A stretch of DNA of 64,000 bases, taken from assembly GCF_000015865.1 (NCBI RefSeq), contig NC_009012.1, positions 1,977,081 to 2,041,080 on the forward strand. Reading direction: 5' to 3'. Below are positions 5,122 to 47,622 of this stretch, one piece after another; positions within the stretch are counted from its first letter, which is position 1, and each line of letters starts with the position of its first letter. Origin of the DNA: Acetivibrio thermocellus ATCC 27405. GTDB lineage: Bacteria; Bacillota; Clostridia; Acetivibrionales; Acetivibrionaceae. The position numbers and the translations under genes were made by a program. Below the pieces are notes generated by a model. That model did no database searches. It had not been told where the DNA came from and worked only from the letters and a program-made list of their open reading frames with translations.

Positions 5122-5172
5122 ACCGTACCTCCCTGATTACCATCATTTCAGACCAAATATTTCCTTATGTAA

Positions 5173-5256: not shown

Positions 5257-5279
5257 TTATAGCGAGCGAGGTGACAATT

Positions 5280-5486
5280 ATGGCCGTAAGCTATAAAAAA
5301 CTATGGAAACTCTTAATTGATAAAGATATGAAAAAGAAAGATTTAAGAGAAGCGGCTGGTATTAGTACATCTTCTATGGCAAAACTGGGTAAAAACGAAA
5401 ATGTTACGACCGATGTGCTTGTGAAGATTTGTAAGGCATTAAACTGCGATATTTCAGATATTATGGAGATTGAGCCAGATGAATAG
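5280..5486 (+). CDS. Small XRE/Cro-family repressor
   Basis: A 68-aa protein starting at ATG 5280 behind GAGGTGACAATT. It is a compact helix-turn-helix of the YozG/Cro-C1 type (KKDLREAAGISTSSMAKLGKNENVTTDVLVKICKALNCDISDI), with no other domain. It is divergent from the ImmA/IrrE-HTH gene and is probably autoregulated through the inverted repeats at 5193-5235. This is the usual repressor/protease arrangement of phages and integrative elements. Downstream, 240 bases of AT-rich DNA with no convincing gene lead to IS3 copy 1. Confidence 0.85.
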   Translation: MAVSYKKLWKLLIDKDMKKKDLREAAGISTSSMAKLGKNENVTTDVLVKICKALNCDISDIMEIEPDE

Positions 5487-5965
5487 GTATCAACAGCTTT
5501 TACTTAATAGTTAAGCAACAATGACGCTAATTGAATTATTATGAAAAAACTTAAATTAATAAAATTTTAAAAGTGAGGTTATAAAGATGTATAATCAATT
5601 TTTTAATACTGTTCTTGAAGTACTAAAATAAAGATGATAAAATGTATTCTGATTACTAAGAAGGTAAGTAATTATATATAGATTTCTTTGCTTACTAAAT
5701 TGGAAAGAGATTACAGCCCAGAGGTTGTATATAATGCTCCCCATTGTCAAGACAGTTTTTTAGCTTTTCTAAGTTAGTTCTCCTTTCTTAATTTTGTATA
5801 ATCTTTACAACTGTGCACTCTGTTGGAGGATGTCAAGGGCGAGCGTAAGCGAGTTCATCTTGACCCTTGACATCCTTTGGACATATATCCTTTTGCTTTC
5901 CGGTCTGTTATGACAGACCGGCTGCCTTCCGGTGAGGACGGGGTTTGGGGCGGAGCCCCATAATT

Positions 5966-6913
5966 CTATACAACTGCCAGTAGCTGGTCATATCCTCCAA
6001 AGTAATACTCTGCCGGTGTTTTGTAATCCAATGACTGGTGCGGTCTCCTATGGTTATAGTGCTCCACATATTCCTTTGTGATTTGTCTAAGTTGTTGTAC
6101 CGTTTCGCACTCTTCAAGATAAAGTTTCTCCCACTTGTAGGAACGGAAAAATCGTTCTATCCTTTGGTTGTCTAATGCTCTTCCTTTTCCATCCATAGAT
6201 ATTTTGATACCGTTATTTTTTAATAGATTTATGTAATCATCACTGGTAAACTGTGAGCCTTGATCACTGTTCATGATTTCAGGCTTGCCATATCGCTTTA
6301 TGGCCTTTTGGATTGCTTCTATGACGAATGTCTTATCAAGAGTGTTTGATAGTTCAAACCCAACAATATACCGAGAATACCAGTCTATTATTGCAACCAT
6401 ATACATGAAACCGCGTTTCATTCGGCAATAGGTCACATCTATGGACCATACCTGATTAGGATGATCAATTTTCAAGTTTCTCAACAGATATGGATACAAA
6501 TTCTTACCATGTATTCGTTTGCTGAGGTTGGGGCCAGGACAGAATCCATGTATGCCCATTTCCCTCATATAACGCCGGGTCCGTTTTCGATTGATATGAA
6601 TGTGATAATCCTTGTTCAATATACTTGTCATCCTGCGATAGCCATATTCCGGATAAGACGCGTAAATTTCATCAATGATACGCTTAATCAGGTATTCCTC
6701 CTCATTTACCGGAGCAGGCTTGTAGTAAACGCTCGTACGGTTTAAGCTCAATAATTCTGCTTGCCTTGTTATGCTGAGTTTCTTCTCATTTCTATCAATC
6801 ATTTTCATGCGGTCTTCTCGGGATTTAGAGGAGGCCAGATTTTTTTTTAAGCCAGGCAACCTCATATGATAGTTGACCAATTTGCTTAAGCAGTTCGTCC
6901 TTCTCCTTTTCAT
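5966..6913 (-). CDS. IS3-family transposase OrfB (copy 1)
   Basis: The catalytic half of the transposase, 315 aa. It has an rve/DDE core with WSIDVTY (first Asp), NSDQGSQF (second Asp) and RIERFFRSYKWE (Glu), and an HTH_21-like region (YPEYGYRRMTSIL) before it. Its frame overlaps orfA by about 90 bases. The overlap holds an A-run (CTTAAAAAAAAATCTGG), so OrfAB is expected to be made by -1 ribosomal frameshifting, as is known for IS3 elements. The ATG used here may not be the real entry point. Confidence 0.93.
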   Translation of the reverse strand: MKRRRTNCLSKLVNYHMRLPGLKKNLASSKSREDRMKMIDRNEKKLSITRQAELLSLNRTSVYYKPAPVNEEEYLIKRIIDEIYASYPEYGYRRMTSILNKDYHIHINRKRTRRYMREMGIHGFCPGPNLSKRIHGKNLYPYLLRNLKIDHPNQVWSIDVTYCRMKRGFMYMVAIIDWYSRYIVGFELSNTLDKTFVIEAIQKAIKRYGKPEIMNSDQGSQFTSDDYINLLKNNGIKISMDGKGRALDNQRIERFFRSYKWEKLYLEECETVQQLRQITKEYVEHYNHRRPHQSLDYKTPAEYYFGGYDQLLAVV

Positions 6914-7118
6914 ACGACTGTTTGACCTTCTCTACTTCATCAGTTTCCTTGCTGAATACTCTGCCCGCATTGCTTATGAATTCAGTCTTCCAGCGACTTA
7001 ACAGGTTTGGATGAATTCCATATTCTGCAGCAATCTCATTCAGCGTTCTTTCTCCCTTGATGACCTCAATCACTATTTTTGCTTTTTGTTCAGGTGTAAA
7101 ATGTTTTCTCTTTTCCAT
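6825..7118 (-). CDS. IS3-family transposase OrfA (copy 1)
   Basis: A 97-aa DNA-binding subunit with the HTH_Tnp_1 pattern FTPEQKAKIVIEVIKGERT...EIAAEYGIHPNLLSRWK, followed by a leucine-zipper-like coiled coil (VEKVKQSYEKEKDELLKQI). It ends AWLKKKSGLL just past the A-run where frameshifting into orfB is expected. Confidence 0.93.
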   Translation of the reverse strand: MEKRKHFTPEQKAKIVIEVIKGERTLNEIAAEYGIHPNLLSRWKTEFISNAGRVFSKETDEVEKVKQSYEKEKDELLKQIGQLSYEVAWLKKKSGLL

Positions 7119-28793: not shown

Positions 28794-29920
28794 TATCAAA
28801 AACCGCTCTTATGGACTTATTCCCTCGAAGCGATATTTTCATGATTTTACTCAATGGGTTTTACACCCATATGTGCTGAAAGCCCTGATATATAAGGGTT
28901 TTTTACGCTCTCACTCTTTCACCCTTGTTATCAATACAACCGTCTCCACATGTGTTGTGATAGAAAGATGATAATAATACGCAGAATTATTCGTTTTGTG
29001 TAAAGGTGAACCTCCTTAAATTAAAAGGAGTCGGGCTGACCCCCTAACTTTGGACACTATCATGAAATTTTGTGACTTATCATAGAATTACATGTATTTT
29101 CAGCTTCCTCCACGGTCTGCCCTTGACATTGAGCCTCTGCATATATGAGTAAGAGCCCTGACGGCAGCTGGCAATTCAGAGCTGCCATATAAAATGCTAT
29201 CATACATGCCCTCAATATCAATGGTACGCTGCGCCAGACCTTACATTATCTATAGTCTCATATTTACTGTTTCTCCAGATATTCTAAGATGTTCATAGAA
29301 CTCTGCCGGAGGCATGTATTTGGTTGAGGAATGAATTCGTTTTGTATTATACAATTTAATAAACTCATTAACTATTGTATAGGCCTCTGCAAAGCTCTCA
29401 AATTCATTGATGCTTAAGCATTCTTCCTCTAAAATTCTATGGTATGATTCTATATGTTCATTCATATTAGGTGTTTTGTAAGGTATTCTTTCATGTTCAA
29501 CCTAAAGACTCTCGCAGGCTTTTGCAAAAGCTTCACTTATGAACTGTGGACCATTATCTGAACGTATAACTGGTTTATTCTCAGCCTCGTAAAGCTGACG
29601 TTTTAAAAGAACTATCTTTAGAGTCCTTGAAACATCTTCCCCTGTACAGCTTAGCCCTATATGATGTGAAATAATATTTCTATCTGCAACATCAATAAAA
29701 CTAAGTATATAGAAAAATCTATTCTCTCCACTGATGTATCCGTACTTAATGTCGGTTTCCCAGAGCTGATTTGAAGCCTTTACAGTTCTGTTTCTGGCAA
29801 TCTTTTTTTAATGCTTTAGTTTGGTTTTTCTTTGTGGCTTTAGTATATTGAGCTCTTTGCAGTATAATGATACCAAAAATTAAGACAGACAAAACAGCCC
29901 AAATAAGTTAGAATGGAACT

Positions 29921-31955: not shown

Positions 31956-33680
31956 CTATGCTAATATTTTCCTATAAAGCTTGCTGTATTCTCCCTCTTT
32001 CTCTAATAACTGAAGATGTGTTCCAGATTCTTCAATCCTTCCATTATTAAGAACAACTATCTTGTTTGATCCTTTTACAGTGCTTAATTTATGGCTTATA
32101 ACAAATATTGTTGAGTATTCTTTAAGCTTATTTATAGATTCTTGAATAAGCTCCTCACTTTCTGAATCAATAAAGGAGGTTGGTTCATCAAGTATTACAA
32201 TTTGAGGTCTTTGCAAAAATATTCTAGCCAATGCTATTCTTTGTAATTGACCCCCCGATAGGTTTCTCCCTTTGCTTCCTATTTGAGTCCAATAACCATC
32301 TTCAAGTTCTGATATGAATTCATGAGCATTTGCTAATTTAGCCGCTTCAATAATTTCCTCTTCGGTAGCATCACTTTTTCCTAGTAATATATTTTCTCTT
32401 ATTGAACCACTAAATAAAAAGCTATTTTGTAAAACAATTCCTACACTCTTTCTATAAGTATCTACATCTATATCTTTAATATTTACATCATCTAACAAAA
32501 TTTCTCCACTTGAAGGATCGAAAAATCTTGCTATTAATAAGCACAAGGTTGTTTTACCTGCCCCACTTCTTCCTATTATTGAGCATATCGTATTCTTTTT
32601 AACTGTTAGGTTAATATCTTTTAACACTTCTTTTCCATCATCATAGCTAAAGTTCAAATCTTTTATAGTGATTTCATCAACAATTTTATGCATCACCTTT
32701 ATACAATCATTACTTTGAATAATACTATTCTCCAACTTCATAACATCACTTATTCGTTTGGTACTAGATAGTGCATCTTGAAGCCCTGTTATAACACTTA
32801 CAATTGAATTTATTGGAGAATTTATTATATTTGCAACTAATAAAAAGGATATAAGCTCACCCATTGTAATTATCCCATTTATCACGAAATTTCCACCAAT
32901 CCAGATAGATCCAAAACCTATACATGACATAATTACACTAGATATCTCCGTAAACAATAGGTTCAGGTTTGCTTCTTTTATTTGCTTGTCCAAAACTTTT
33001 TCATTATTCTTATCAAATTTATCAATTTCGCTTTTTTCATTATTACAACCTTTTAATAGGTGAAATGAACTTATTACTTCTATTGTTCGGTTTAGGGTCG
33101 CTTCTGTGACAACCTTTCTCTCATATGTTATAGCTCTTATCCTTTTTGTAAAGTATATAATTATTGGTACCTGTATTAAATTCATGACCCCGACAAAAAT
33201 GGTCATTACAGAACTAATTGTAAACATATAAATAAAAATTATTATTAATAAAATAACATTAAATAACCCTCCAAACATAATTTGACCAAATGACTGTTTC
33301 AATAAATCTGAATCATTAAAAATTCTAAAGTTTATTTCTCCGACACTCATTTTTTTAGTAACTAATAAATCTAGTTTTACGATATGTTTGAATATCTTTT
33401 TCTTTATATCTAAACCCAAACTTAAGAATATTCTATTTAGTGAATAACTATAAATAAAATGTACGATAGAATTCACTATGGTAAAAGTAAAAATAAAGAT
33501 AATCACTTTATTTAATACTGAGAAATTTCTGCTGGTTAAAACACTATCTATTAATACGCGGGTTATTAATGGGTTCAATAATATAAAGAACATAGATACT
33601 AGAGATAACACACTTGCTGCTATAATTCTATTTCTATATTTAGAAACATTTTCTTTTAAAAATTTTATGTAATCCTTCAT
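31956..33680 (-). CDS. ABC exporter (permease-ATPase fusion) of the RiPP cluster
   Basis: A 574-aa half-transporter: six membrane segments (1-300) fused to an ATPase with Walker A GRSGAGKTTL, Q-loop LQNSFLF, signature LSGGQLQRIALAR, Walker B IVILDEPTSFID and H-loop ISHKLS. It has no N-terminal C39 peptidase, so any leader removal after the GG of the precursor would need another protease. As the last gene of the radical SAM cluster it most likely exports the modified peptide (inference). IS3 copy 6 separates it from the preceding gene, so its expression may depend on the outward sequences of that IS or an internal promoter. Confidence 0.9.
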   Translation of the reverse strand: MKDYIKFLKENVSKYRNRIIAASVLSLVSMFFILLNPLITRVLIDSVLTSRNFSVLNKVIIFIFTFTIVNSIVHFIYSYSLNRIFLSLGLDIKKKIFKHIVKLDLLVTKKMSVGEINFRIFNDSDLLKQSFGQIMFGGLFNVILLIIIFIYMFTISSVMTIFVGVMNLIQVPIIIYFTKRIRAITYERKVVTEATLNRTIEVISSFHLLKGCNNEKSEIDKFDKNNEKVLDKQIKEANLNLLFTEISSVIMSCIGFGSIWIGGNFVINGIITMGELISFLLVANIINSPINSIVSVITGLQDALSSTKRISDVMKLENSIIQSNDCIKVMHKIVDEITIKDLNFSYDDGKEVLKDINLTVKKNTICSIIGRSGAGKTTLCLLIARFFDPSSGEILLDDVNIKDIDVDTYRKSVGIVLQNSFLFSGSIRENILLGKSDATEEEIIEAAKLANAHEFISELEDGYWTQIGSKGRNLSGGQLQRIALARIFLQRPQIVILDEPTSFIDSESEELIQESINKLKEYSTIFVISHKLSTVKGSNKIVVLNNGRIEESGTHLQLLEKEGEYSKLYRKILA

Positions 33681-35249: not shown

Positions 35250-36230
35250 TTATATATCTTCCTGATTGATTTTATTAATAATCTCACTTAAATCTCTACA
35301 GCTATAGATTTCCTTAGCAATTTCCTGGATTTTTTTATTAGACCATAGAGAATTTAATCCAGAATCCCAATATTCTCTTAATGACTTTACTTTTACATTC
35401 CCTACTGAAATAGGAATGCAATAAGATGGAAATATGTTTCCATCACTTTGTATCTCTATTACTGTATTCGCTTTATTTTCTCTGTAATAATAGATATGAC
35501 TTATAGGATCGTTAAATCCAATTTGAAACCCTATTCCCTTTCTTTTATATTTATTTATAGTTTTAACAACTTGTCTATAATCTTTTGAGGTTGGAGCTCT
35601 CAATTCATTCTTTACTGCCGCTGCTCCGATTTCCAGTAATGGTCTTATATTAAGCGCACTAATTTGCATATCCTCCAATTTTTCAATTATCGGCTCCACG
35701 TCATTTACATTCCATTTATTTAGAGTATAGGATACAGATGTTGTAACTCCAGCATAGCACAGATTTCTTATTCCCTTTAACGCTAAATTAAAACATCCTT
35801 TTACTTGTCTTAGTTTTTCGTGGGTATCCTCATTACATCCATCTAAGCTAACTTGTACTTCTTTTACTCCTAAAACATTTAGCATTTCAGCCGTTTGTTC
35901 ATCAATTAAAGTCCCATTTGTAACTATAGATGTTCTTACATTTCTCTGTCCTAACAGCATCAGACAATTAAATAGTACCTGCTTTCTAACCAAGGGCTCT
36001 CCACCAGAAAAACAAACGTTAGCAACTTTCATTTCTCCCAGTTCCTTTACTATTTTAATTATCTGATCATCCTCCAGCTCCTTACAAGCTGATTTTGTCG
36101 ATGTTGGACTATCATTAAAGCAATGCAAACATCTTAAGTTACACTTATTGGTTATGTTTAGGACAACATATAGCGGTGCACCTATACTACTCTGAAATTC
36201 TAAATTTTCTCCAAACATTATTCTTTCCAT
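35250..36230 (-). CDS. Radical SAM peptide-modifying enzyme, reduced C-terminal domain
   Basis: A 326-aa protein. The radical SAM cluster motif is C30-x3-C34-x2-C37 (TNKCNLRCLHCFND), with the SAM-binding CFSGGEPL and the VQVSLDG strand. After the barrel it has a SPASM-like spacer (IEIQSDGNIFPSYCIPISVGNVKVKSLREYW) with a single Cys, so no canonical auxiliary [4Fe-4S] set is encoded. IS3 copy 6 replaced the last seven residues (KSKVTAV, still encoded beyond the IS at 33807-33785) with one Ile and a stop; activity may survive. It follows the RRE/acetyltransferase-like gene by 9 bp. Confidence 0.9.
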   Translation of the reverse strand: MERIMFGENLEFQSSIGAPLYVVLNITNKCNLRCLHCFNDSPTSTKSACKELEDDQIIKIVKELGEMKVANVCFSGGEPLVRKQVLFNCLMLLGQRNVRTSIVTNGTLIDEQTAEMLNVLGVKEVQVSLDGCNEDTHEKLRQVKGCFNLALKGIRNLCYAGVTTSVSYTLNKWNVNDVEPIIEKLEDMQISALNIRPLLEIGAAAVKNELRAPTSKDYRQVVKTINKYKRKGIGFQIGFNDPISHIYYYRENKANTVIEIQSDGNIFPSYCIPISVGNVKVKSLREYWDSGLNSLWSNKKIQEIAKEIYSCRDLSEIINKINQEDI

Positions 36231-36239
36231 AAAAACACC

Positions 36240-37085
36240 TTATATACAATAGTTATATTCAACAACATTTTGGTTATATCCTAGCTCATCTTCTAATGTC
36301 ACACCTTTAACAAAATGTCCTTCTTTAAATATTGTATTTTCGATATTATCATTATCTGATAGATAAAGCCTAAACTTTTTTATTGATTTTTTTGATATCT
36401 GTGGTATCATGGAGAATACATATTCTAAAAATTTATCTTCCACATTTGTATCATCATCCATGATTACAGCTATAAGTGAATTAACATTTATTTTCATATT
36501 ATTCATGCTAAAGAATACACCTCTAATTTTGTCTTCTTTTTCTAATACAAATATAAATTGTGCTTTTGTTAAGAATCCTGATTTTAATGTTTCTGCATTT
36601 ACTAGGTTAACTACATCTACATAGGGGTTAATATATCTATACTGACTATTTCTTTTTTCTTCATCCATTATGTTAGCTTTCTTGAAGTAACCAATAATCT
36701 TACTTACATCCTTATAATCAGCTAAATATGCACTAAATCCATACCCTAATTCAAATTTATATTTATCTATAAAAGGATTAGTTCCTTCCCAAGTTAACAG
36801 TTGTAAATCCAAGAAATTCTGGATTATCGAAACAACATCATTATATACTACTTCCCTTGGAGCTTTATACTTTGTAACAAAATAATCAACTATATCCTTT
36901 AGCGTGGTTTCTCCATTAAGCAATTTGATTATTTCTACACAAGTCCAATTCAATATTGTTTCATTAGAAAGTGCCGGAGTTATAAACCTAAATGAAAAGT
37001 ATCCATCATTCTCTTCTCTGGAATACGCTATTAGGTTTGTTAAAAACTTTGGTTTAAACTCTAAAAGATTAACTTCATTATTCAT
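36240..37085 (-). CDS. PqqD-like RRE domain fused to an acetyltransferase-like domain
   Basis: A 281-aa protein. Residues about 35-100 have the PqqD/RRE pattern LNWTCVEIIKLLNGETTLKDIVDYFVTKY...VVYNDVVSIIQNFLDLQLL, the fold that binds RiPP leader peptides. The rest (YLADYKDVSKIIGYFKKAN..., TKAQFIFVLEKEDKIRGVFFSM) resembles a GNAT fold, with no clear acetyl-CoA P-loop. It lies between two radical SAM genes with 2-9 bp gaps and may present the precursor to them. Acetylation of the peptide is possible but not demonstrated by motifs. Confidence 0.65.
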   Translation of the reverse strand: MNNEVNLLEFKPKFLTNLIAYSREENDGYFSFRFITPALSNETILNWTCVEIIKLLNGETTLKDIVDYFVTKYKAPREVVYNDVVSIIQNFLDLQLLTWEGTNPFIDKYKFELGYGFSAYLADYKDVSKIIGYFKKANIMDEEKRNSQYRYINPYVDVVNLVNAETLKSGFLTKAQFIFVLEKEDKIRGVFFSMNNMKINVNSLIAVIMDDDTNVEDKFLEYVFSMIPQISKKSIKKFRLYLSDNDNIENTIFKEGHFVKGVTLEDELGYNQNVVEYNYCI

Positions 37086-38342
37086 AATTACCTCACATCA
37101 ATATATTTTAAATTCTTATTTTCTATAATGTCCAGTTCTATATCACTGTCTTTAAATGTTTTGGGCATACCTATATAATCCATATTAATTTCTCTAACAG
37201 ATTTAATCTTTCTAGATACCTTTTGAATAATGTCAAGTTTCCAAACTGCACCTAGTCCATTTTTCCAATACTCTATCAAGCTATGTTTTTTAACATTCCC
37301 AACCACTATCGGCAAATATATACTTGGAGCAATTCCGCCATCCGCCTTTATAGACACAAAGGGACAACACTCCTTATTATATTCAGAAAATCTTATAAAA
37401 TGGTCTACTGGGTCTCCCCATTCAAATCTTATTCCTCTGCCTCTATACAAAGATTTTCTTTTCCTCCTATTAAAAGATTTAATCATTCTTCTATACTGTA
37501 AACTATTAGGCAGTATTTCTCTATCGTTTTCTTCTCCTCTTCCAATAGGCATGGTGGCTTGTACCCTTATTTCTCTTACTGATAATTCTATACAAAAATC
37601 AACAATCTGATCAAATTCTTCTGTGTTCCAACTAGTTGGCGTAAATGCAACACCCGTTTCTATTTTTACATCTTTTAAATTCTGTAATGCTTCAGCTGCC
37701 TTTTCAAAGGCTCCTTCATGTCTTCTTAGCCTATCATGTGACTTCCCAATACCATCAATACTTATTTGTGCTCTTGATAAACCAGCTTCTTTTAACTGCT
37801 TTGATACTTCCGGTGTTAATAGTAATCCATTTGTAACAAATGAAACTTGTATATCTTCATCATTTAATATTTTTATGCACTTTAGAAGAATATCTTTTCT
37901 CAGTAATGGTTCACCTCCACAAAAGCATACGTTCAATGGCTTTATCGAAGCTATATCCTTAACTAAGGCTACTAGTTCTGAGTCTGTCATTTCCCCTTCA
38001 GTACATATATTATTTTCACCACTAAAGTTGTAGCAATGCAAGCATCTAAGATTACATCTATTTGTTATATCAACAGTCAATTGATAAGGTCCCTTTAATA
38101 TACTATTATAATGCTCCCCATTGTCAAGACAGTTTTTTAGCTTTTCTAAGTTAGCTCTCCTTTCTTAATTTTGTATAATCTTTACAACTGTGCACTCTGT
38201 TGGAGGATGTCAAGGGCGAGCGTAAGCGAGTTCATCTTGACCCTTGACATCCTTTGGACATATATCCTTTTGCTTTCCGGTCTGTTATGACAGACCGGCT
38301 GCCTTCCGGTGAGGACGGGGTTTGGGGCGGAGCCCCATAATT

Positions 38343-39290
38343 CTATACAACTGCCAGTAGCTGGTCATATCCTCCAAAGTAATACTCTGCCGGTGTTTTG
38401 TAATCCAATGACTGGTGCGGTCTCCTATGGTTATAGTGCTCCACATATTCCTTTGTGATTTGTCTAAGTTGTTGTACCGTTTCGCACTCTTCAAGATAAA
38501 GTTTCTCCCACTTGTAGGAACGGAAAAATCGTTCTATCCTTTGGTTGTCTAATGCTCTTCCTTTTCCATCCATAGATATTTTGATACCGTTATTTTTTAA
38601 TAGATTTATGTAATCATCACTGGTAAACTGTGAGCCTTGATCACTGTTCATGATTTCAGGCTTGCCATATCGCTTTATGGCCTTTTGGATTGCTTCTATG
38701 ACGAATGTCTTATCAAGAGTGTTTGATAGTTCAAACCCAACAATATACCGAGAATACCAGTCTATTATTGCAACCATATACATGAAACCGCGTTTCATTC
38801 GGCAATAGGTCACATCTATGGACCATACCTGATTAGGATGATCAATTTTCAAGTTTCTCAACAGATATGGATACAAATTCTTACCATGTATTCGTTTGCT
38901 GAGGTTGGGGCCAGGACAGAATCCATGTATGCCCATTTCCCTCATATAACGCCGGGTCCGTTTTCGATTGATATGAATGTGATAATCCTTGTTCAATATA
39001 CTTGTCATCCTGCGATAGCCATATTCCGGATAAGACGCGTAAATTTCATCAATGATACGCTTAATCAGGTATTCCTCCTCATTTACCGGAGCAGGCTTGT
39101 AGTAAACGCTCGTACGGTTTAAGCTCAATAATTCTGCTTGCCTTGTTATGCTGAGTTTCTTCTCATTTCTATCAATCATTTTCATGCGGTCTTCTCGGGA
39201 TTTAGAGGAGGCCAGATTTTTTTTTAAGCCAGGCAACCTCATATGATAGTTGACCAATTTGCTTAAGCAGTTCGTCCTTCTCCTTTTCAT
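38343..39290 (-). CDS. IS3-family transposase OrfB (copy 7)
   Basis: A 315-aa DDE transposase identical to copy 1. Confidence 0.93.
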   Translation of the reverse strand: MKRRRTNCLSKLVNYHMRLPGLKKNLASSKSREDRMKMIDRNEKKLSITRQAELLSLNRTSVYYKPAPVNEEEYLIKRIIDEIYASYPEYGYRRMTSILNKDYHIHINRKRTRRYMREMGIHGFCPGPNLSKRIHGKNLYPYLLRNLKIDHPNQVWSIDVTYCRMKRGFMYMVAIIDWYSRYIVGFELSNTLDKTFVIEAIQKAIKRYGKPEIMNSDQGSQFTSDDYINLLKNNGIKISMDGKGRALDNQRIERFFRSYKWEKLYLEECETVQQLRQITKEYVEHYNHRRPHQSLDYKTPAEYYFGGYDQLLAVV

Positions 39291-39495
39291 ACGACTGTTT
39301 GACCTTCTCTACTTCATCAGTTTCCTTGCTGAATACTCTGCCCGCATTGCTTATGAATTCAGTCTTCCAGCGACTTAACAGGTTTGGATGAATTCCATAT
39401 TCTGCAGCAATCTCATTCAGCGTTCTTTCTCCCTTGATGACCTCAATCACTATTTTTGCTTTTTGTTCAGGTGTAAAATGTTTTCTCTTTTCCAT
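39202..39495 (-). CDS. IS3-family transposase OrfA (copy 7)
   Basis: A 97-aa protein identical to the other OrfA copies. Confidence 0.93.
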   Translation of the reverse strand: MEKRKHFTPEQKAKIVIEVIKGERTLNEIAAEYGIHPNLLSRWKTEFISNAGRVFSKETDEVEKVKQSYEKEKDELLKQIGQLSYEVAWLKKKSGLL

Positions 39496-39602
39496 AGTTC
39501 CATTCTAACTTATTTGGGCTGTTTTGTCTGTCTTAATTTTTGGTATCATTATACTATTATGTGTACAAACTTTATTTTCCATAATGCCTCCATACTATAT
39601 TA

Positions 39603-40154
39603 TTATTTCATCTTTATTATCATTGTTGTTAATGCTACTCCGTTACCAACTTCGTTTTCCCTTGTAACTTCATGAGAGAAACCAGCTTCCATAAGTTTAT
39701 TTTTCCAGTACTCAGTAAATATGCCGTTCTCTCTTATATACGTTCTTATCTTTGTCGGTTCTACAATGGAGTATTCCGGTAATATTTCTGTAGCGAAAAT
39801 AAACATGTCCCTTAGCCTACTCATTTCACCCTCTTCACATATTATCAAGTTCAGATTGAGTACCTTTGATAAATTATTTCTGTTTATGTCTAGTGCTATC
39901 AAAGCAGCAATTTTGCCTTCCTTCTCCATAACTATGTATTCTTCATAAAAATTATATATACTGCTTCTTATGTTTATGTCATTATAACATTCTTGATTTA
40001 ATATTTGATCGCTCAAAAATATTCTTTTCGACATTTCAAATTCATGCTTGCTATTCATATATTTATTCATAAATTTTATAAGTCTTTTTGTATCTGCCTC
40101 TTCGATTAGCTTAATACTGTAAAGTTCATTTATACTTTTATTTTCCAGCATCAT
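39603..40154 (-). CDS. Acetyltransferase-like protein of the RiPP cluster
   Basis: A 183-aa protein starting behind GGAGGTACTCCTAT. The pattern (IVMEKEGKIAALIALDINRNNLSKVLNLNLIICEEGE... and a C-terminal WKNKLMEAGFSHEVTRENEVGNGVALTTMIIKMK) is suggestive of a GNAT fold, but the acetyl-CoA binding loop is not convincing. It follows the precursor gene and its hairpin and precedes the second radical SAM gene, so it is part of the operon. Its similarity in style to the C-terminal half of the 36240-37085 protein hints that both descend from one type of domain. Function unknown. Confidence 0.55.
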   Translation of the reverse strand: MMLENKSINELYSIKLIEEADTKRLIKFMNKYMNSKHEFEMSKRIFLSDQILNQECYNDINIRSSIYNFYEEYIVMEKEGKIAALIALDINRNNLSKVLNLNLIICEEGEMSRLRDMFIFATEILPEYSIVEPTKIRTYIRENGIFTEYWKNKLMEAGFSHEVTRENEVGNGVALTTMIIKMK

Positions 40155-40200
40155 ATAGGAGTACCTCCGAATTAATTCGATTTTTTAATGAATATTAAAA

Positions 40201-40234
40201 TGATTAAGTTCTTGTAAATACAAGAACTTAACCA
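40201..40234 (-). terminator. Attenuator/terminator hairpin after the precursor gene
   Basis: On the minus strand TGGTTAAGTTCTTG pairs with CAAGAACTTAATCA over 14 bp (one G-U) with a 6-base loop, followed by TTTTAAT. It starts 11 bases after the precursor stop. Such hairpins behind RiPP precursor genes often allow partial read-through and protect the abundant precursor mRNA. Confidence 0.7.
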
Positions 40235-40244
40235 TTTTCCTATT

Positions 40245-40427
40245 TTACCAGTATGGATCACACCAAACCCATGCTGCTCCATAAACTACAGCTGCTACTG
40301 CACCTGCAATTAGCGCAGCACCTGCAACAGCTAAAACTGCATAGCCCATTTTTATTAAGCTAACAGCATTTGCTGAGCTGCCTGATCCCCCAACTAGTTG
40401 AATTGATGGTGATTGATAATTCTGCAT
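40245..40427 (-). CDS. Putative RiPP precursor peptide, Gly/Ala-rich, YxxPxI-GG leader
   Basis: A 60-aa peptide from ATG 40427, with GGGGGGATACATA upstream as a strong ribosome binding site. The leader MQNYQSPSIQLVGG has a YxxPxI motif, like leader motifs bound by RRE domains, and a GG at 13-14. The predicted core begins SGSSANAVSLIKMGY, continues as a Gly/Ala/Val-rich hydrophobic stretch (residues 31-52, with small-residue spacing as in GxxxG helices) and ends WVWCDPYW with one Cys. It sits among three radical SAM genes, a PqqD-like protein and an ABC exporter. Cleavage after GG and the modification type are inference; I know no named family that matches. Confidence 0.75.
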   Translation of the reverse strand: MQNYQSPSIQLVGGSGSSANAVSLIKMGYAVLAVAGAALIAGAVAAVVYGAAWVWCDPYW

Positions 40428-40621
40428 TATGTATCCCCCCTTTCCTATTGCTTTAATCAAAAGCTAATGCATAACCTTTGATTAACCCTTAAACTTTGAT
40501 AATTTCTATAGATAATCTGCATTCCTGAAGATTAAGTTTTCTTTATTTGAATAGTCAAAAGACAACTTAAAAAAAGCAAAATATCATCATAATTAGTGAT
40601 TATCGGCATAAATAGCCCCTA

Positions 40622-41242
40622 TTAATTACATGAATACTCAAGAACTTGTCCCTTATTTACTGCTTTGATTAATTTTCTATCGGCGGAATTTGAATACAAT
40701 AGGAATTGCTTTTCTGTACAGTCAATAACCTTGGATAGTGATAATCTGGAACAAGAGTATACCTTATCTCCTAGCCTTACTTCTTCTAAACAACAATATG
40801 AAATTTCGTATTCCTCCACAATAGAAGTTTTAATATTTAAAATATTTATCTTATGTCTTTGTTCATTTGTAAAATCCAATTTACTAACTAAGTCGTAAAC
40901 CTGTAGATTATCATAGATGTTATCTCTATTTTTTAATTTCTTTTTATATATACCCTTTGGAGTTTTTGCAACTAACTCTATAGAGTTCTTTTTGTAATGA
41001 CACTCTATGTTAATATCCATATCACCAAACTTAGTAAAAACCTGCGATTTAATTGGCAGCAATGATTCTGAATTATAAAGTACCTGATTGCTTTCTAGCT
41101 CGGTTCCGTTTATCACAACTGTCGATTTAACTGTTCTTATTCCATTCTCCTCAACTATTTCGACTTTATACTCTCCTACCTTCTCATAGGCAGCTTTATC
41201 CGATACAACCTTTATATTGTAAATATATGTGTTTTTATACAT
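40622..41242 (-). CDS. Unknown protein of the RiPP cluster
   Basis: A 206-aa protein without signal peptide or membrane segment, rich in beta-strand-like alternation (VEIVEENGIRTVKSTVVINGTELESNQVLYN). It has a CC pair (SYCCLEEVRLGDKVYSCSRL) and a further Cys near each of those. Its start overlaps the end of the SPASM radical SAM gene by 8 bases, and the precursor gene follows after 195 bases. The layout resembles lipocalin/DUF3108-like beta-barrel proteins only loosely. It may be a scaffold, immunity or modification partner. No function is assigned. Confidence 0.6.
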   Translation of the reverse strand: MYKNTYIYNIKVVSDKAAYEKVGEYKVEIVEENGIRTVKSTVVINGTELESNQVLYNSESLLPIKSQVFTKFGDMDINIECHYKKNSIELVAKTPKGIYKKKLKNRDNIYDNLQVYDLVSKLDFTNEQRHKINILNIKTSIVEEYEISYCCLEEVRLGDKVYSCSRLSLSKVIDCTEKQFLLYSNSADRKLIKAVNKGQVLEYSCN

Positions 41243-42710
41243 AACCTACCTCACCACTTAATATTTCTTTCATTTTCAACTCATGTTTAAGTATTTCTTT
41301 TTTCCACCTACATTCAACTAAACTAGAATTTGTTATAGCTTGAGAAATACAGCCTAAACAATTGCTGACATAATCACAATTCTTACAAGTATTTAGGTCC
41401 GGACTCTCTAAATTTGAAAAACATTCATTGGTTGACTTGTTAATTATATTTACCATATCCTCACCATGATTTATTTTCCCTATTGTAAATGTACTCATCA
41501 TGCATGGTTTTATGTTTCCGTTTGCCTCAATAAACAACAATCTCGATCCCGCTCCGCACCCATTACAACTACATTTGACATTGTTATTTCTATATAAATA
41601 ATATTCTTCAAGACTTGGGCATTTATCCAGAAAACTACTTGTCCAATTTCCGTCCTCCTCATATGTAACCAAAAAATCTTTTCCTTTATAATCTCTCATT
41701 ATTTTATCTACTTTCTTTATTATTGAATCTAAATCACTTTCTCTTGCATCTTTCATTTCCCTAATTGCTCTTCCATGATTTACAACTCTGCCAAAACCTA
41801 TAGACTTCGCTCCATTTTCATATGCAATATCAGCAATAATATTTATATATTCTAAATTCTTTTTTGTTATCACAGTACCAATTGAAAAGCTTACTTTTGC
41901 ATTTTTTAGATATCCCATAGCAAGTATTACTTTTTCAAAAGCTCCCTTAACTCCCCTTAATTCATCATGTATTTCTTTGGTAGGGCCATCCAAGCTAAGC
42001 TTAACACGCTTTATTCCAACTTCTGATAGCCAATTTGCCCAATTTTGATTCAATCTCATACCATTCGTGATTAATGTTGTTTCAAATCCACGTGCTATGC
42101 TATACTTTATAATTTCTTTTATTTTAGGATGACACATTGGGTCGCCGCCGGTTATGCTTACACTATTACACCCATCACTTAATTTATCTAGAATAGAATA
42201 AATTTGTTCTTCTGTTAGCTGAGTGTTTCTCATAGCTCCTGCTTCACCATAACAATGTTTACATCTAAGATCACATTGCTTAGTTATTTCTATAGAACAG
42301 GAATAAGGTACATACCAGTCTCTGCTTCCGGTATTTTTGATTACTCTATTCTGCTTATATTCTAAAAAATCTATTATGTTTCTCCTGTACAGCTGCAAGA
42401 TAAACATTTTAATTGAAAAATACTTGCTCATATCCGACTGATCTAACTCTTTAAATGAATTAGACACAACTTCCTGTAATGTATGCTCTCCATTGAGCTT
42501 GTTTATTACTTCTGCCCCTTCAATATTTAACGATAAAACCTCGATGCCATTAAATATTAATAAAGTTTTATCTGGCCAATTATGTAAATGGTAATTTTCT
42601 TTTAGAATTATATACTTATTATCATCAATCATATCTAATCTAATATTAGAATTATAATTATATATTTGTGATACAAGATTTTCTCTTAAAATTATTGGAA
42701 CTTTCATCAT
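41235..42710 (-). CDS. RRE-radical SAM-SPASM peptide maturase
   Basis: A 491-aa protein, first gene of the cluster, with GGAGGATAGTAA before ATG 42710. Residues about 55-118 form a PqqD-like leader-binding domain (IEGAEVINKLNGEHTLQEVVSNSF...MFILQLYRRNIIDFL). The radical SAM motif is C146-x3-C150-x2-C153 (TKQCDLRCKHCYGEAG), with SITGGDP following. The C-terminal SPASM domain is complete: CSCNGCGAG, GNIKPCMMSTF, then CKNCDYVSNCLGC and a final Cys, sufficient for two auxiliary [4Fe-4S] clusters. This architecture is that of sactipeptide/ranthipeptide-type thioether or C-C bond forming maturases. The linkage type is not predictable here. Confidence 0.9.
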   Translation of the reverse strand: MMKVPIILRENLVSQIYNYNSNIRLDMIDDNKYIILKENYHLHNWPDKTLLIFNGIEVLSLNIEGAEVINKLNGEHTLQEVVSNSFKELDQSDMSKYFSIKMFILQLYRRNIIDFLEYKQNRVIKNTGSRDWYVPYSCSIEITKQCDLRCKHCYGEAGAMRNTQLTEEQIYSILDKLSDGCNSVSITGGDPMCHPKIKEIIKYSIARGFETTLITNGMRLNQNWANWLSEVGIKRVKLSLDGPTKEIHDELRGVKGAFEKVILAMGYLKNAKVSFSIGTVITKKNLEYINIIADIAYENGAKSIGFGRVVNHGRAIREMKDARESDLDSIIKKVDKIMRDYKGKDFLVTYEEDGNWTSSFLDKCPSLEEYYLYRNNNVKCSCNGCGAGSRLLFIEANGNIKPCMMSTFTIGKINHGEDMVNIINKSTNECFSNLESPDLNTCKNCDYVSNCLGCISQAITNSSLVECRWKKEILKHELKMKEILSGEVGYV

Positions 42711-42796: not shown

Positions 42797-42824
42797 ATTA
42801 TAAAATACTTTTTTTGGTAGTCAA
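42797..42824 (-). promoter_or_regulatory. Strong sigma-A promoter of the RiPP operon
   Basis: TTGACT (42824-42819), 16-bp spacer, TATAAT (42802-42797) on the minus strand, leaving a leader of about 80 nt before the first radical SAM gene. Confidence 0.75.
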
Positions 42825-42890: not shown

Positions 42891-42925
42891 AAAAGACCCC
42901 ATCCTAATACCGGATGAGGACTTTT
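42891..42925. terminator. Bidirectional terminator between SdpI and the RiPP operon
   Basis: AAAAGACCCCATCC pairs with GGATGAGGACTTTT around a 7-base loop, with two internal mismatches; T-rich on both strands. It lies about 100 bp after the SdpI stop and so insulates the RiPP promoter. Confidence 0.7.
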
Positions 42926-43029: not shown

Positions 43030-43629
43030 TCAAATCTTATTCTTTTTACAATAAACACTAATATAAAAATCATTAATTATTGACCATAATACTACTCCTA
43101 CTAATAATAGCACGATCAAATATTTGCCTCTCATAAATAAACAAATTATGAATAATATTGTTCCAACAATTACTAAACTAATTCCTCCAATTGTATTAGC
43201 CTTTCTCCACACCTTCTCGTTACTTAATGCTTTTTTTGTTCTTACTCCAATTATAAAATTCTGTTTGATTTGCGGCATTATATTACCAATATAAATTAGC
43301 ATATACGAAATTATTATCGAAACAATTTTATAAGAATCTATTTTCGCATTAAAGTAACTATAAAGTAATACAAATTGTATAGTCATTAATACGATTGTAG
43401 AACTTATTAACACTTTATAATAGTATTTTTCAATAGCAGCCATATCTTTCGCCTTGCCTGCATACGTCCTAAAAATTACATACTGAATCAGAATACTAAC
43501 TGCAATTATTAGTGTGGCATATAGATTACTTGTTGAACTATTTTTATTAGCAATATAGTAAGAAACTGCAAATACAATATTTGCTAAAATAATAAATAGT
43601 ATCCCTCTATTCTTATTTTTATCCAACAC
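43030..43629 (-). CDS. SdpI-family membrane immunity/signalling protein
   Basis: A 199-aa protein with six membrane segments. The SdpI signature is present: IGNIMPQIKQNFIIGVRTKKALSNEKVWRKAN (compare GNxMPKIKPNYxxGIRTPWTLxxxxVWxKTH in the family). In Bacillus, SdpI protects against the SdpC toxin and sequesters the repressor SdpR. It starts at GTG behind GGAGGGAAGT, 9 bases after the SdpR-like gene. No sdpABC genes are in the window, so immunity to a different peptide, possibly the neighbouring RiPP, is a reasonable inference. Confidence 0.85.
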   Translation of the reverse strand: MLDKNKNRGILFIILANIVFAVSYYIANKNSSTSNLYATLIIAVSILIQYVIFRTYAGKAKDMAAIEKYYYKVLISSTIVLMTIQFVLLYSYFNAKIDSYKIVSIIISYMLIYIGNIMPQIKQNFIIGVRTKKALSNEKVWRKANTIGGISLVIVGTILFIICLFMRGKYLIVLLLVGVVLWSIINDFYISVYCKKNKI

Positions 43630-43638
43630 ACTTCCCTC

Positions 43639-43899
43639 CTACTTATTATCTCTTAGTCCCATAAACCAATTTATAATATACTGAATTGAAGACATCTTTA
43701 TAGAGTAAATTGAGAATTGCCCTTCTTTTCTAGATTCAACAATTCCTGCACTTTCAAGAACTTTTAAATGATGGGATATACATGGTTGCGTTTTATTAAA
43801 ATCCTTAGCAATTTCATTTACTGACATATCCTTTTCTACGAGCATACTAATAATCTTCCTTCTTGATTCATCAGATAATGCCTTAAATATTTTATCCAA
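43639..43899 (-). CDS. SdpR/ArsR-family autorepressor
   Basis: An 86-aa winged-helix protein. TTG 43899 is preferred as start (GAGGTGAGTT just upstream); a TTG 30 codons earlier is less well placed. IFKALSDESRRKIISMLVEKDMSVNEIAKDFNKTQPCISHHLKVLESAGIVESRKEGQFSIYSIKM is the ArsR fold, with the SdpR-like C-terminal IINWFMGL. It lacks the metal-binding Cys pair of ArsR sensors. It is probably an autorepressor of the sdpR-sdpI pair, relieved when SdpI binds it at the membrane. Confidence 0.85.
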   Translation of the reverse strand: MDKIFKALSDESRRKIISMLVEKDMSVNEIAKDFNKTQPCISHHLKVLESAGIVESRKEGQFSIYSIKMSSIQYIINWFMGLRDNK

Positions 43900-44209
43900 A
43901 AACTCACCTCTTCCTAATAGTACTTCCAAAGTTTTTCAAACTACTGATTTTTCACAATTGACTATCATGCAAGAATTATCTCAGAGTAAAATTCTTAGAA
44001 ATTTAATATCATATTAATTATTTCTCTGAATATTCGCAAATAAAGCTAAGTTTTTGGCACCTATAGATAACTTTGGGAGATTAAAATACCTTTTACCATT
44101 GCTTACTTATTTAGTTAATACTGTTTTATTAAAAACATATCAATTACTATTATATTCACCAATTTTTAATTATCGTTCCCCGGATATATTCTAAAACTGC
44201 CAAATAAAA

Positions 44210-45059: not shown

Positions 45060-46469
45060 TTAAATTGCAACTTCAATCTCCGTGCTATCAAGCAAACTCA
45101 CTATTATCTTTTTTCCATCAAATACTGTCATTTTCTCTATTATTCTAAAATACATATCAACATCAAACTCCTCTACTATCTTTGCATCCTTTAAAATTTC
45201 AATAAACTGCCTTGCCTTATATCTTTTAAGCAAGTTATCACTTTTAAGTCCTTCCTTCCACTTCTCCATAAAGTATTCCTTATTCTCCACCATAGCATTA
45301 AATGTATTTACAAAGGCATGATATAAAACCTTGTCATCTATATGCTTATTCTCACAGCTCTTTTTTCCCTTTACTTCATATTTTTTATTACATCTCCAAA
45401 CCACTCTTCTTAGCCTTTCATCAGTAGAATTCCATACCTTTCTTCCAAAGGCACTGCCGCAGTGTCCGCAGATAACTCTTCCTGCAAAGGGATTATCTAC
45501 TGTGGCATAATCAAGCTTACTGATGTTATATTTTTCAGCAAAAGCTCTTCTTCTCTCCATCTCTAGCTGTACCGCTTCCCAAATTTCTTTATCTATAATT
45601 GCAGGATGGCTTTCTTCTACATAATACATTGGAACTTCGCCATTGTTTACTGCTCTTTTTTTGGTTAGAAAATCAACAGTATATGTCTTTTGGAGAAGTG
45701 CATCTCCTTTATATTTTTCATTACTTAAAATCTTTCTTATACTGCTTTCATACCACTTAGGTTTTCCATTCCAGTTAGGAACACCTTCTTCTTCAAGTTC
45801 CCTTGCAATTCTGTTTGCACCTTTACCGTCAAGGTAATCCTTATATATTCTTCTTACAATTTTAGCCTGCTTTTCATTTATCACAAGATTTCCTTCTTCA
45901 TCTTTATCATAGCCTAAAAACTTTGTATGATTTATATGAAGCTTTCCCTGTTCAAACCTTCTCCTTATGCCCCATGTAGAATTTTCACTTATACTTCTTG
46001 ATTCATCTTGGGCAAGGGAGCTGAGGATTGTAAGCAGTACTTCTCCCTTTGAATCTAAAGTATTAATATTTTCCTTTTCAAATATTACTCCAATACCTAA
46101 TTCTTTAAGCTGTCTTACGTAGTTTAATGTATCAAGTGTATTTCTTGCAAACCTTGATATAGACTTGGTTATTATCATATCTATTTTCCCTGCTTTGCAG
46201 TCTTCTATCATTTTATTGAACTGTTCTCTCTTTTTAGTGTTTGTCCCTGAAATCCCCTCATCTGCGTAAATTCCTCCGAATTCATAATCTGGATGATTTG
46301 TTATATAAGATGTATAATAAGCTACCTGTGCTTCATAGCTTGATAACTGTTCTAATTGGTCTGTTGATACTCTGCAATAAGCTCCCATTCTCTTTTTCTG
46401 CGTCTGTATTTGCTCTGCCAGATTGTTTCTGTTTGCTCTTGCAGGTATAAGTGTAATATTTCTTGCCAT
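45060..46469 (-). CDS. Large serine recombinase 1 of the prophage
   Basis: A 469-aa protein. Catalytic S35 is in [20 protein letters not shown] and [12 protein letters not shown] complete the resolvase domain. The Recombinase domain (about 180-280), zinc ribbon (CGHCGSAFGRKV...WRCNKK) and a C-terminal region with VFDGKKIIVSLLDSTEIEV follow. It starts at ATG 46469 behind GGAGGAAGTTAAGG, and its first 45 codons lie inside the end of the upstream recombinase gene in another frame. It is expected to act in phage integration/excision. Confidence 0.92.
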   Translation of the reverse strand: MARNITLIPARANRNNLAEQIQTQKKRMGAYCRVSTDQLEQLSSYEAQVAYYTSYITNHPDYEFGGIYADEGISGTNTKKREQFNKMIEDCKAGKIDMIITKSISRFARNTLDTLNYVRQLKELGIGVIFEKENINTLDSKGEVLLTILSSLAQDESRSISENSTWGIRRRFEQGKLHINHTKFLGYDKDEEGNLVINEKQAKIVRRIYKDYLDGKGANRIARELEEEGVPNWNGKPKWYESSIRKILSNEKYKGDALLQKTYTVDFLTKKRAVNNGEVPMYYVEESHPAIIDKEIWEAVQLEMERRRAFAEKYNISKLDYATVDNPFAGRVICGHCGSAFGRKVWNSTDERLRRVVWRCNKKYEVKGKKSCENKHIDDKVLYHAFVNTFNAMVENKEYFMEKWKEGLKSDNLLKRYKARQFIEILKDAKIVEEFDVDMYFRIIEKMTVFDGKKIIVSLLDSTEIEVAI

Positions 46470-47622
46470 CCTTAACTTCCTCCCTTACAATTATTGGTTC
46501 TTCTATATTAAGCCTGCTTATAACCTCATCATCAATTGATGTTCCACTGCAGGCGTCTTTTCCGTTTTTAATATAATTACTGCACTGCCATACAATCTTT
46601 CTGCAATTTAATTTGCTGTTCCAAGTTCTTCTCCTTAGAGTAGAGCCGCATTTACTGCAGAAAAGCATTCCTGTTAATGGATATCTGTTTGTATATTTTT
46701 TTGTATCTCCTGCTTTATTTCCTTTTGCCTTTGCTCTTCTTGCAATTTCTATCTGAACCTGCTCCCACATTTCTCTTGAAACTATGGGAGAGTGATTATC
46801 TTCAATATAATAGCTGTCAATTACGCCTTCATTTCTAACACTTACTTTTCTCAGATGGTCTGGTGTGTAATACTTTTGAAGTATGGCATCTCCCTTGTAT
46901 TTTTCATTCTTGAGGATATTTAAAATTGTACTTTCCTGCCATCTGCCGCCTGCAACAGTAGGCACTTTATCTTCATTTAATTCTTTGGCTATGGTAAATG
47001 TTCCTTTGCCTTTTAAATAATCTTCAAATATTCTTTTAACTATTTCTGCTTCTTTTGGGTTTATAACTAAATCGCCGTATTCATCCTTGTCATAACCTAA
47101 AAATCTTGTGGTATTTATAATCAGCTCTCCTCGTTCAAACTTCTTTTTTACCCTCCACTTTAAGTTATCACTGATATTTTTACTTTCTTCCTGGGCAAAA
47201 GAAGAGAGGACGGTTAGCATAAGCTCTCCATCCCCTGATAAAGTTCTGATATTCTCTTTTTCAAATATTATTTCTACACCAATGTCCTTTAGTTCTCTTA
47301 CTACTTGAAGCATTATTGCTGTATTCCTTGCAAATCTTGAGATAGATTTGGTGATGATTAAGTCTATTTTCCCTTCTTTTGCAAGATTAAGCATTCTTTG
47401 AAACTCTGGTCTATTATCTGTAGTGCCGGTAATTCCTCTATCAGCAAATACACCTGCATATTCGTAATCAGGATTATTTGAAATCAGATTTTCATAATAC
47501 TGGATTTGATTTTCTAAAGATTCACCTTGAGCATCACTGCCGGTTGAAACTCTTGCATAAGCACAAACTCTTTTCTTTTTATTTTCCTTCTTTTTTACAG
47601 GTTCAATAATCCTAACACGCAT
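46333..47622 (-). CDS. Large serine recombinase 2 of the prophage
   Basis: A 429-aa protein. Catalytic S26 is in AYARVSTGSD; the resolvase motifs RGITGTTDNRPEF and [12 protein letters not shown] and a zinc ribbon (CSKCGSTLRRRTW...WQCSNY) are present. It ends VREEVKDGKKYYTYTCKSKQ plus 27 residues, shorter than recombinase 1 and without the C-terminal beta strand. It overlaps recombinase 1 by 137 bases. GAAGGAAGGATATAGA precedes ATG 47622. Together they may act as a pair, as in elements that need two serine recombinases. Confidence 0.9.
   Translation of the reverse strand: MRVRIIEPVKKKENKKKRVCAYARVSTGSDAQGESLENQIQYYENLISNNPDYEYAGVFADRGITGTTDNRPEFQRMLNLAKEGKIDLIITKSISRFARNTAIMLQVVRELKDIGVEIIFEKENIRTLSGDGELMLTVLSSFAQEESKNISDNLKWRVKKKFERGELIINTTRFLGYDKDEYGDLVINPKEAEIVKRIFEDYLKGKGTFTIAKELNEDKVPTVAGGRWQESTILNILKNEKYKGDAILQKYYTPDHLRKVSVRNEGVIDSYYIEDNHSPIVSREMWEQVQIEIARRAKAKGNKAGDTKKYTNRYPLTGMLFCSKCGSTLRRRTWNSKLNCRKIVWQCSNYIKNGKDACSGTSIDDEVISRLNIEEPIIVREEVKDGKKYYTYTCKSKQKQSGRANTDAEKENGSLLQSINRPIRTVIKL

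Follow-up and report, generated by a model that had tools for sequence, protein, structure and literature searches.

Does a 60-residue open reading frame lying among radical SAM genes of Acetivibrio thermocellus ATCC 27405 encode the precursor of a modified peptide, and if so, which part of it would be modified, by which enzymes, and to what end? We addressed this in a window of 64,000 nucleotides (contig NC_009012.1, positions 1,977,081 to 2,041,080), the whole stretch of DNA that was analysed and to which coordinates refer unless another record is named.

A short leader-bearing precursor gene

The open reading frame (40427-40245, minus strand), its 60-residue translation and its tail residue counts were confirmed from the sequence, the translation being exactly the one given in a preliminary description of this DNA. 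The features of the gene are as follows.

40245..40427 (-), precursor peptide gene, 60 aa, with ATG at 40427 and stop at 40247-40245
40386..40427 (-), leader MQNYQSPSIQLVGG, with the lasso-type RRE motif Y4xxP7xI9xxxG13
40272..40346 (-), hydrophobic small-residue segment (by hydropathy), precursor residues 28-52
40248..40271 (-), tail WVWCDPYW (from the sequence), precursor residues 53-60
40435..40443 (-), ribosome-binding site AAAGGGGGG (from the sequence), strong
40197..40238 (-), stem-loop of 19 pairs, beginning 6 nt after the precursor stop

The 14-residue leader follows the pattern Y4-x-x-P7-x-I9-x-x-x-G13-G14. Motifs of the form [Y/W]xxPx[L/V/I...] in leaders are bound by RREs, according to excerpts of PMC13381572 and PMC12710340, and the proposal that this leader belongs to the RRE-binding YxxP type is supported: its motif matches, a PqqD/RRE protein is encoded nearby, and the motif recurs at both sister loci described below. 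Behind the leader, residues 30-48 form the most hydrophobic 19-residue stretch (mean Kyte-Doolittle value 2.55), with small-xxx-small-xxx-small patterns starting at residues 33, 37, 38 and 42, and the tail combines three Trp with one Tyr, one Cys, one Asp and one Pro. The start codon is preceded, at 7 nt, by GGGGGG. Downstream, the stem has 19 pairs (one of them G-U) and a 4-nt loop; an 86-nt piece containing it folds at -24.6 kcal/mol (z -6.6), with none of 200 shuffles equally stable, and an Rfam scan gave nothing at the gathering threshold. A stem of this kind is what one would predict were the precursor message favoured relative to the downstream genes, and it probably serves as an intercistronic attenuator or stabiliser.

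The precursor is the only ATG-started frame of 35-110 aa in the window that combines an RBS-like stretch with Y..P.[ILVM]...G beginning among residues 1-21, and none of 60 dinucleotide-shuffled versions of the window yielded a match in the same small-ORF search. Neither Pfam nor NCBIfam matched the peptide at E ≤ 1. Among plasmids and phages there was no match at E ≤ 10, among viral contigs none, and in the PDB nothing better than E 0.84. Only the source genome was found among 14 genomes of the family; in 391 genomes of the class, 83 had a match at E ≤ 1, the source genome included (best other, 0.007). Inspection of 15 of these weak matches (E 0.007-0.11) returned mostly parts of larger frames or membrane-type segments, and no short peptide with the leader motif. 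This 391-genome search covered genome G022 yet missed the sister precursor that lies in it, so a lack of matches is weak evidence.

Genes around the precursor

Nine proteins and the precursor, spanning 31.9-43.9 kb of the window, were scanned against Pfam; NCBIfam results are those for the best 25 of 76, 90 and 104 models for the SPASM enzyme, rSAM1 and rSAM2, respectively. The neighbourhood comprises the following features.

43639..43929 (-), SdpR/ArsR-type repressor; SdpR model at 96.5 bits, just below the cut-off of 100
43030..43629 (-), SdpI-family membrane protein, candidate immunity gene; PF13630 at 7.8e-13, 48.8 bits against a cut-off of 28.2
42897..42919 (-), hairpin resembling a terminator, separating the SdpI-like gene from that of the SPASM enzyme
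42797..42824 (-), promoter-like TTGACT-16-TATAAT upstream of the SPASM enzyme gene, 11/12 consensus
41235..42710 (-), radical SAM/SPASM enzyme, 491 aa; Radical_SAM 1.1e-24, SPASM 3.8e-6
40622..41242 (-), orphan 206-aa protein; its gene and that of the SPASM enzyme share 8 nt
39603..40154 (-), 183-aa GNAT-like protein, modelled with low confidence (mean pLDDT 41)
38107..39556 (-), IS3-type insertion in rSAM1, missing from the L002 copy
37088..38107 (-), main part of rSAM1, radical SAM with no SPASM match at cut-off; N-terminus cut off by the IS
36240..37085 (-), PqqD(RRE)-GNAT-like fusion, 281 aa; PqqD 1.5e-7
35250..36230 (-), rSAM2, radical SAM with no SPASM match at cut-off; frame ends at an IS copy
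31956..33680 (-), ABC exporter with membrane and ATPase domains; no C39 match

Read leftward on the minus strand, the order is thus SPASM enzyme, 206-aa protein, precursor, GNAT-like protein, rSAM1, PqqD fusion, rSAM2 and exporter, with the SdpI- and SdpR-like genes upstream. The SdpR-like protein also scores above the cut-off of the ArsR/SmtB model. Across the region, promoter-like sites are no more frequent than chance predicts (31 found vs 32.7 expected), a limit that applies to the one listed here. PADLOC, run on the cluster proteins given to it, reported viperin-like radical SAM similarity only.

The SPASM radical SAM enzyme that had been placed near the precursor is present, and its closest PDB sequence is the sactisynthase SkfB (1.7e-23), with SkfB and CteB as the closest solved structures. 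On all of the best 25 of 76 NCBIfam models the enzyme stays below cut-off, the scores being 110 of 300 bits for SkfB, 98.6 of 850 for AlbA, 87.2 of 625 for StsB and 77.7 of 340 for PapB. Its N-terminus gives no Pfam match when taken alone and aligns with PqqD-matching proteins, e.g., at locus L047 (1e-8), suggesting a second RRE. Relatives of this enzyme, 26-33% identical, occur in 4 of 391 genomes of the class at 1e-30 and in 20 of 398 genomes of the phylum at 1e-28, the source genome included in both. Frames under 150 aa at 22 of these loci contained the leader motif in a chance-like manner in L006, L007, L060 and L065, with no believable precursor. Separately, L047 contains, at 2915-3052, a 45-aa frame that has CAAC plus one more Cys, a possible sactipeptide; a PqqD-rSAM-SPASM gene and an ABC ATPase-like gene are close by.

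The 206-aa protein was found in the source genome only among 58 genomes of the order, has no NCBIfam match and two Pfam matches, both below cut-off, and is mostly beta in a low-confidence AF2 model; a cytosolic beta-sheet helper is our guess. For the 183-aa protein, all 50 listed PDB matches of the model are acyl- or acetyltransferases, one of them at E ≤ 0.001, and the protein shows 28% similarity to the C-terminus of the PqqD fusion over 96 residues; it is predicted to be GNAT-like. rSAM2 is 33% identical to rSAM1. Among the best 25 of 90 and 104 models for rSAM1 and rSAM2, the top scores belong to heme-type models below cut-off, the WgkB model reaches 90.7 and 105 bits against a cut-off of 650, and no curated epimerase model appears. 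A search with rSAM1 gave 11 weak matches in phage records; 54 loci on viral contigs (23-36% identity), found with the rSAM alignment, were taken as generic radical SAM proteins and set aside. The PqqD fusion matched its own genome and, weakly and over the PqqD part, one other (G115) among 391 genomes, and an alignment of the fusion matched none of the viral contigs.

The cluster is prophage cargo with a second copy in a Fervidicella draft genome

The cluster is cargo of a 64.9-kb prophage integrated in rlmD, with 64,867 bp between the two attachment cores. Two features in the window mark this element.

45060..47622 (-), two overlapping large serine integrases, phrog_95 integrase
28944..28952 (-), attachment core CATGTGGAG, the cluster-side element end, followed by the probable displaced rlmD 3' end HVETVVLITRVKE and its stop

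The second end falls within CACGTGGAG, 29.8 kb past the edge of the window, where a gene of the rlmD type (U5 methyltransferase) has its 3' end. At one junction this gene reads HVECVALIEKK to its stop, and HVETVVLITRVKE with its stop follows the other junction; the latter is probably the displaced native end of rlmD. Between the ends, genes for terminase, portal, major head, tape measure, holin, endolysin and the two serine integrases are found, and the cluster sits between the integrases and the attachment end. In L077 (1958-4555), a large terminase has an internal LAGLIDADG domain, likely an intein or homing insert.

A second copy of the cluster region is found in the draft genome of Fervidicella metallireducens, where a 7,250-bp contig (L002) matches it at 99.9%. 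A further 13.6 kb of the phage part is matched there at 99%, and a third Fervidicella contig contains the cluster-side end (1.28 kb) without IS and then BREX genes, so that, with parts of the phage searched, about 22 kb of the prophage are matched at 99-100% in all. Window positions 35839-31673, including the exporter, had no high-identity match among the Fervidicella contigs of at least 3 kb. A TrkH search of the draft gave one match, 48% identical to the TrkH of the window, indicating that the two hosts are distant and that wholesale contamination of the draft by the window chromosome is unlikely; the Fervidicella copy may instead be a phage-only contamination. The cluster sits on a phage of which large parts are nearly unchanged in a distant host. 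Behind a phage end at rlmD in Fervidicella contig 46 (L075, 3478-16696) lie BREX genes for BrxC, a methylase, PglZ and BrxL, apparently from elements stacked at one attachment site. A virus contig, L008, matches window positions 46010-40988 at 98.7% and phage genes at 93%, and stops short of the precursor; at 30-5651 it has three further genes between two serine-integrase pieces, upstream of its SdpR and SdpI genes.

The two copies differ at rSAM1, which is open over 347 aa in L002 and split in the window by an IS of about 1,450 bp; an identical IS copy abuts the end of rSAM2. From 5964 to 39556, the window contains seven near-identical copies of this IS3-type element, and three of these copies lie within the cluster or next to it. 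Since rSAM1 is split, the full product may not be made in this A. thermocellus strain. Taken further, the cluster would no longer make its product in this genome and would only ride on the prophage, a possibility that we regard as doubtful though substantial. The IS copies in and beside the genes and across the window are what such decay would produce, and rSAM1 differs from its L002 counterpart at two residues besides; against it, the remaining frames are open (rSAM2 ending at the IS), and in Fervidicella the uninterrupted gene stands in a shared stretch that is 99.9% identical. The precursor DNA is identical in L002, which makes that copy uninformative on conservation.

Sister loci share the leader and not the tail

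More distant loci were reached through the shared enzymes. The rSAM2 search led to G022, from the same order (2e-50; 4 of 336 genomes at 1e-32, the source genome included), and the rSAM1 search to a record of Collinsella aerofaciens (L088, 1e-68). The G022 locus, L084, encodes on its minus strand a 270-aa and a 71-aa protein, a B12-rSAM, an rSAM, a 267-aa PqqD protein, a PrmC-like methyltransferase, a 55-aa peptide (MELINDYISPEIVVDDGKVEPQALVLVNVNVLVNANANVNANANANANANVNANV, 6781-6948) and an ABC protein. L088 encodes a 297-aa PqqD protein, an rSAM and a peptide, with an ABC gene nearby; read from the ATG at 10048, which lies 27 nt upstream of the annotated start and has AAGGAG before it, the peptide is MYETPEVEKMDSKTGPVPVVVNFAAVVDNVVAAVYDAVVAAYAFWYSADNDGTGTSAAQN. 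Three other loci, L085, L086 and L087, have radical SAM genes and no convincing YxxP precursor.

All three precursors contain Y-x-[ST]-P-x-[IV] within their first 12 residues. Across 143 sequences (1.16 Mb including overlaps), 441 RBS-led frames of 40-85 aa gave 375 distinct peptides, of which three contain this motif, each encoded next to genes for a PqqD protein and an rSAM1-type enzyme; because the motif was written after seeing the three precursors, this count shows its specificity and is not an independent test. The general motif [YW]xxPx[LVIAFY] occurs in eight of the 375, five of them unrelated. Pairwise comparison with shuffled sequences places the similarity in the leader: 20, 32 and 220 of 5000 shuffles reach the scores of the three leader pairs, vs 2025, 1968 and 4867 of 5000 for the core pairs, which are not alignable. 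The cores are nevertheless alike in composition, A, V, G, I, L, M and F making up 67%, 58% and 55%. The sister loci turn a single odd frame into a family that can be tested.

The preliminary description had centred modification on the aromatic tail and proposed that homologues be compared for invariance of the tail and its Cys. As a family feature this does not stand: Cys is missing from both sister precursors, and aromatic-x-aromatic occurs in one of the two (L088, as AAYAF after AA). The leader motif is what the comparison finds kept; a tail modification specific to this locus is the most that remains of the proposal. The double glycine assigned to the leader is missing from both sister precursors, and the exporter has no C39 peptidase match. 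Overall, the earlier reading is partly supported.

The enzymes divide in the same way. rSAM1 shares 35% identity with its counterparts at L084 and L088; C26, C30, C33 and C69 are invariant in all four aligned rSAM1/2-type enzymes, with Cys69 just before GGE, and all four have [DN]GxIxxSxx[IL]PxxxGN where the SPASM Cys is usual. When two further enzymes from L085 are added, Cys69 is found in five of six, one of the two lacking it. The PqqD proteins of L084 and L088 have a C-terminal extension similar in length to that of the window fusion and are 20-21% identical to it, and neither genome search nor tblastn at 0.01 linked the fusion to these loci, so that their kinship is argued from the PqqD domain, length and position. 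The GNAT-like domain resembles the C-terminal domains of the sister proteins weakly (hhalign probability 4.5, E 0.009). In L084, L085 and L088, tblastn at 0.01 found nothing for the 206-aa protein, and for the SPASM enzyme tblastn found only other radical SAM genes over partial length.

SdpI/DUF1648 genes are common in Firmicutes. DUF1648 proteins (PF07853) are also encoded at L084 (15059-15358, about 8 kb from the peptide) and L088 (11796-12422, about 1.6 kb), and tblastn at 0.01 matched neither the SdpI-like nor the SdpR-like protein of the window to these loci. The presence of SdpI/DUF1648 proteins at all three loci hints at a membrane-active product with SdpI-type immunity.

Two neighbouring systems were seen at these loci. 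At L084 1377-4942, a LanM-type enzyme (DUF4135, LANC_like) and a 61-aa Ser/Thr-rich peptide lie beside the sister cluster. At L088 12621-15557, a DUF5969 protein with NAN repeats, a YydG-epimerase-like protein (1.2e-20, below cut-off) and a PrmC-like methyltransferase make a second, epimerised and N-methylated peptide system possible.

A proposed two-part modification and its alternatives

The best explanation, to which we give slightly less than an even chance in full, is that the frame encodes the precursor of a phage-borne, membrane-active RiPP. The RREs would hold the leader, and the shared module, i.e., the PqqD-GNAT-like fusion with the rSAM1/2-type enzymes, would modify the hydrophobic A/V/G segment; judging from the architecture, C-alpha epimerisation is the likeliest change, and the GNAT-like domains might add acyl groups. 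A locus-specific module of the SPASM enzyme and the 206-aa protein would cross-link the W/C/D/Y tail. The ABC protein would export the product, which would insert into competitor membranes, and the SdpI-like protein would protect the lysogen.

Epimerisation would fit because the common target of the shared enzymes beyond the leader is an A/V-rich stretch, poor for cross-linking. Proteusin epimerases, according to excerpts of PMC8326336, have no more than the radical SAM cluster and an RRE, and need a Cys. The L084 core alternates N with V/A. Because of this core, a D-residue beta-helix may be an alternative to the alpha-helical glycine zipper for the hydrophobic segment of the window peptide. 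Together with its B12-rSAM and PrmC-like methyltransferase, we take the N-alternating core of L084 to resemble polytheonamide, so that L084 (6781-6948 and 7008-12671) has the look of a polytheonamide-type system whose leader is short and of the lasso type.

The tail is tentatively assigned to the SPASM enzyme and the 206-aa protein because of the tblastn results for these two at L084, L085 and L088, and because the W/C/D/Y tail, too, was seen only in the window. Alternatively, along the lines of the preliminary description, the SPASM enzyme would cross-link the tail as a cyclophane or ether (at W53-V-W55 or W55-C-D57), the rest being an unmodified membrane helix. The enzyme gene adjoins the precursor gene region, W-x-W is the ether-linked unit of darobactin in the available portion of PMC9055067, and AAYAF gives the L088 peptide an aromatic-x-aromatic as well. 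We nonetheless find this rather unlikely, given that the PapB model, like the rest of the best 25 of 76, stays below cut-off, that SkfB and CteB are the closest solved structures, that the L084 peptide has no such tail although its locus keeps a PqqD protein and an rSAM1-type enzyme, and that the shared module would be left without a task.

The kinship with SkfB could also point to a sactipeptide-like product, in which the SPASM enzyme would join Cys56 through one thioether to a C-alpha upstream of it. The SPASM part of the enzyme is Cys-rich, and the L047 relative (29% identical) is near a short frame with three Cys. The core of the window peptide has one Cys and the sister peptides have none, however, and the enzyme is far below the SkfB cut-off, making such a thioether unlikely in our view.

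A third alternative concerns the role of the product: instead of a weapon, it would mainly be a lysogen signal, with the SdpI-SdpR pair as its sensor. The adjoining SdpR- and SdpI-like genes recall B. subtilis, where SdpC acts as a toxin and also as a ligand, and SdpR is sequestered by SdpI (excerpts of PMC1626106). In that precedent, though, signal and toxin are not exclusive; here, a terminator-like hairpin parts the SdpI-like gene from the operon, and the SdpR-like protein is without a tblastn match at L084 and L088. We consider a mainly signalling role quite improbable. None of these alternatives, nor the decay considered above, is mutually exclusive with the others.

Extended to all three loci, the membrane-active RiPP reading becomes a new RiPP family in which a Y-x-[ST]-P-x-[IV] leader, an RRE-GNAT-like fusion and SPASM-less rSAM epimerases yield D-residue hydrophobic pore peptides, one branch being a phage-borne weapon that moves between distant hosts with SdpI-type immunity and an added tail-cross-linking rSAM. 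This broader proposal is speculative, and we think it fairly unlikely to hold as stated.

Comparison with known systems

As in RiPP systems generally, a short leader-bearing precursor here lies beside modifying enzymes with an RRE. Each of the classes considered, namely lasso peptides, sactipeptides, proteusins, linear polyphosphorylated peptides (LPP) and SDP, is nevertheless separated from the cluster by at least one tested feature, and a literature search that covered few subscription papers found no description of this gene combination.

Lasso peptides share the [Y/W]xxPx[L/V/I...] leader and a PqqD-type RRE (excerpts of PMC13381572 and PMC10368454), but neither a lasso cyclase nor a B2 leader peptidase is among the proteins scanned (31.9-43.9 kb), radical SAM enzymes being found instead, and membership was rejected. 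LPP, in the accessible part of PMC13381572, likewise have a YxxPxV leader, no cyclase and a Bacillota origin; their clusters, however, include an HprK-like kinase and an SpI-like peptidase, and since both are missing among the window proteins scanned, this assignment was rejected too.

The sactipeptide maturases SkfB, AlbA and CteB are among the closest relatives of the SPASM enzyme (best 25 of 76 models; PDB). The window enzyme, in contrast, pairs with an orphan 206-aa partner and a one-Cys substrate, and it is below the curated cut-offs of the SPASM sactisynthase models SkfB, AlbA and StsB. Proteusins and polytheonamide resemble the cluster in their A/V/G-rich hydrophobic core, an rSAM without SPASM at cut-off and an RRE in trans. 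They differ in the leader, which in the window is short and of lasso type, with no nitrile-hydratase-like or nif11 leader (Pfam and NCBIfam, nothing at E ≤ 1), and polytheonamide differs further in that no B12-rSAM or methyltransferase is among the window genes scanned. With the SDP/SdpI-SdpR system of B. subtilis, the window shares SdpI- and SdpR-like genes beside a hydrophobic peptide; SdpA, SdpB and SdpC are, by contrast, without a match among the scanned neighbours, where radical SAM genes are found instead.

Bacteriocin clusters carried by phages are known, e.g., sublancin in SP-beta, which is likewise a peptide weapon as prophage cargo; the window differs from it in peptide and enzymes and in having near-identical copies in two hosts. 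Set against these systems, the cluster combines a leader of the lasso type with radical SAM enzymes and a core that is purely hydrophobic, and three different precursors can now be used to test the role of such PqqD fusions.
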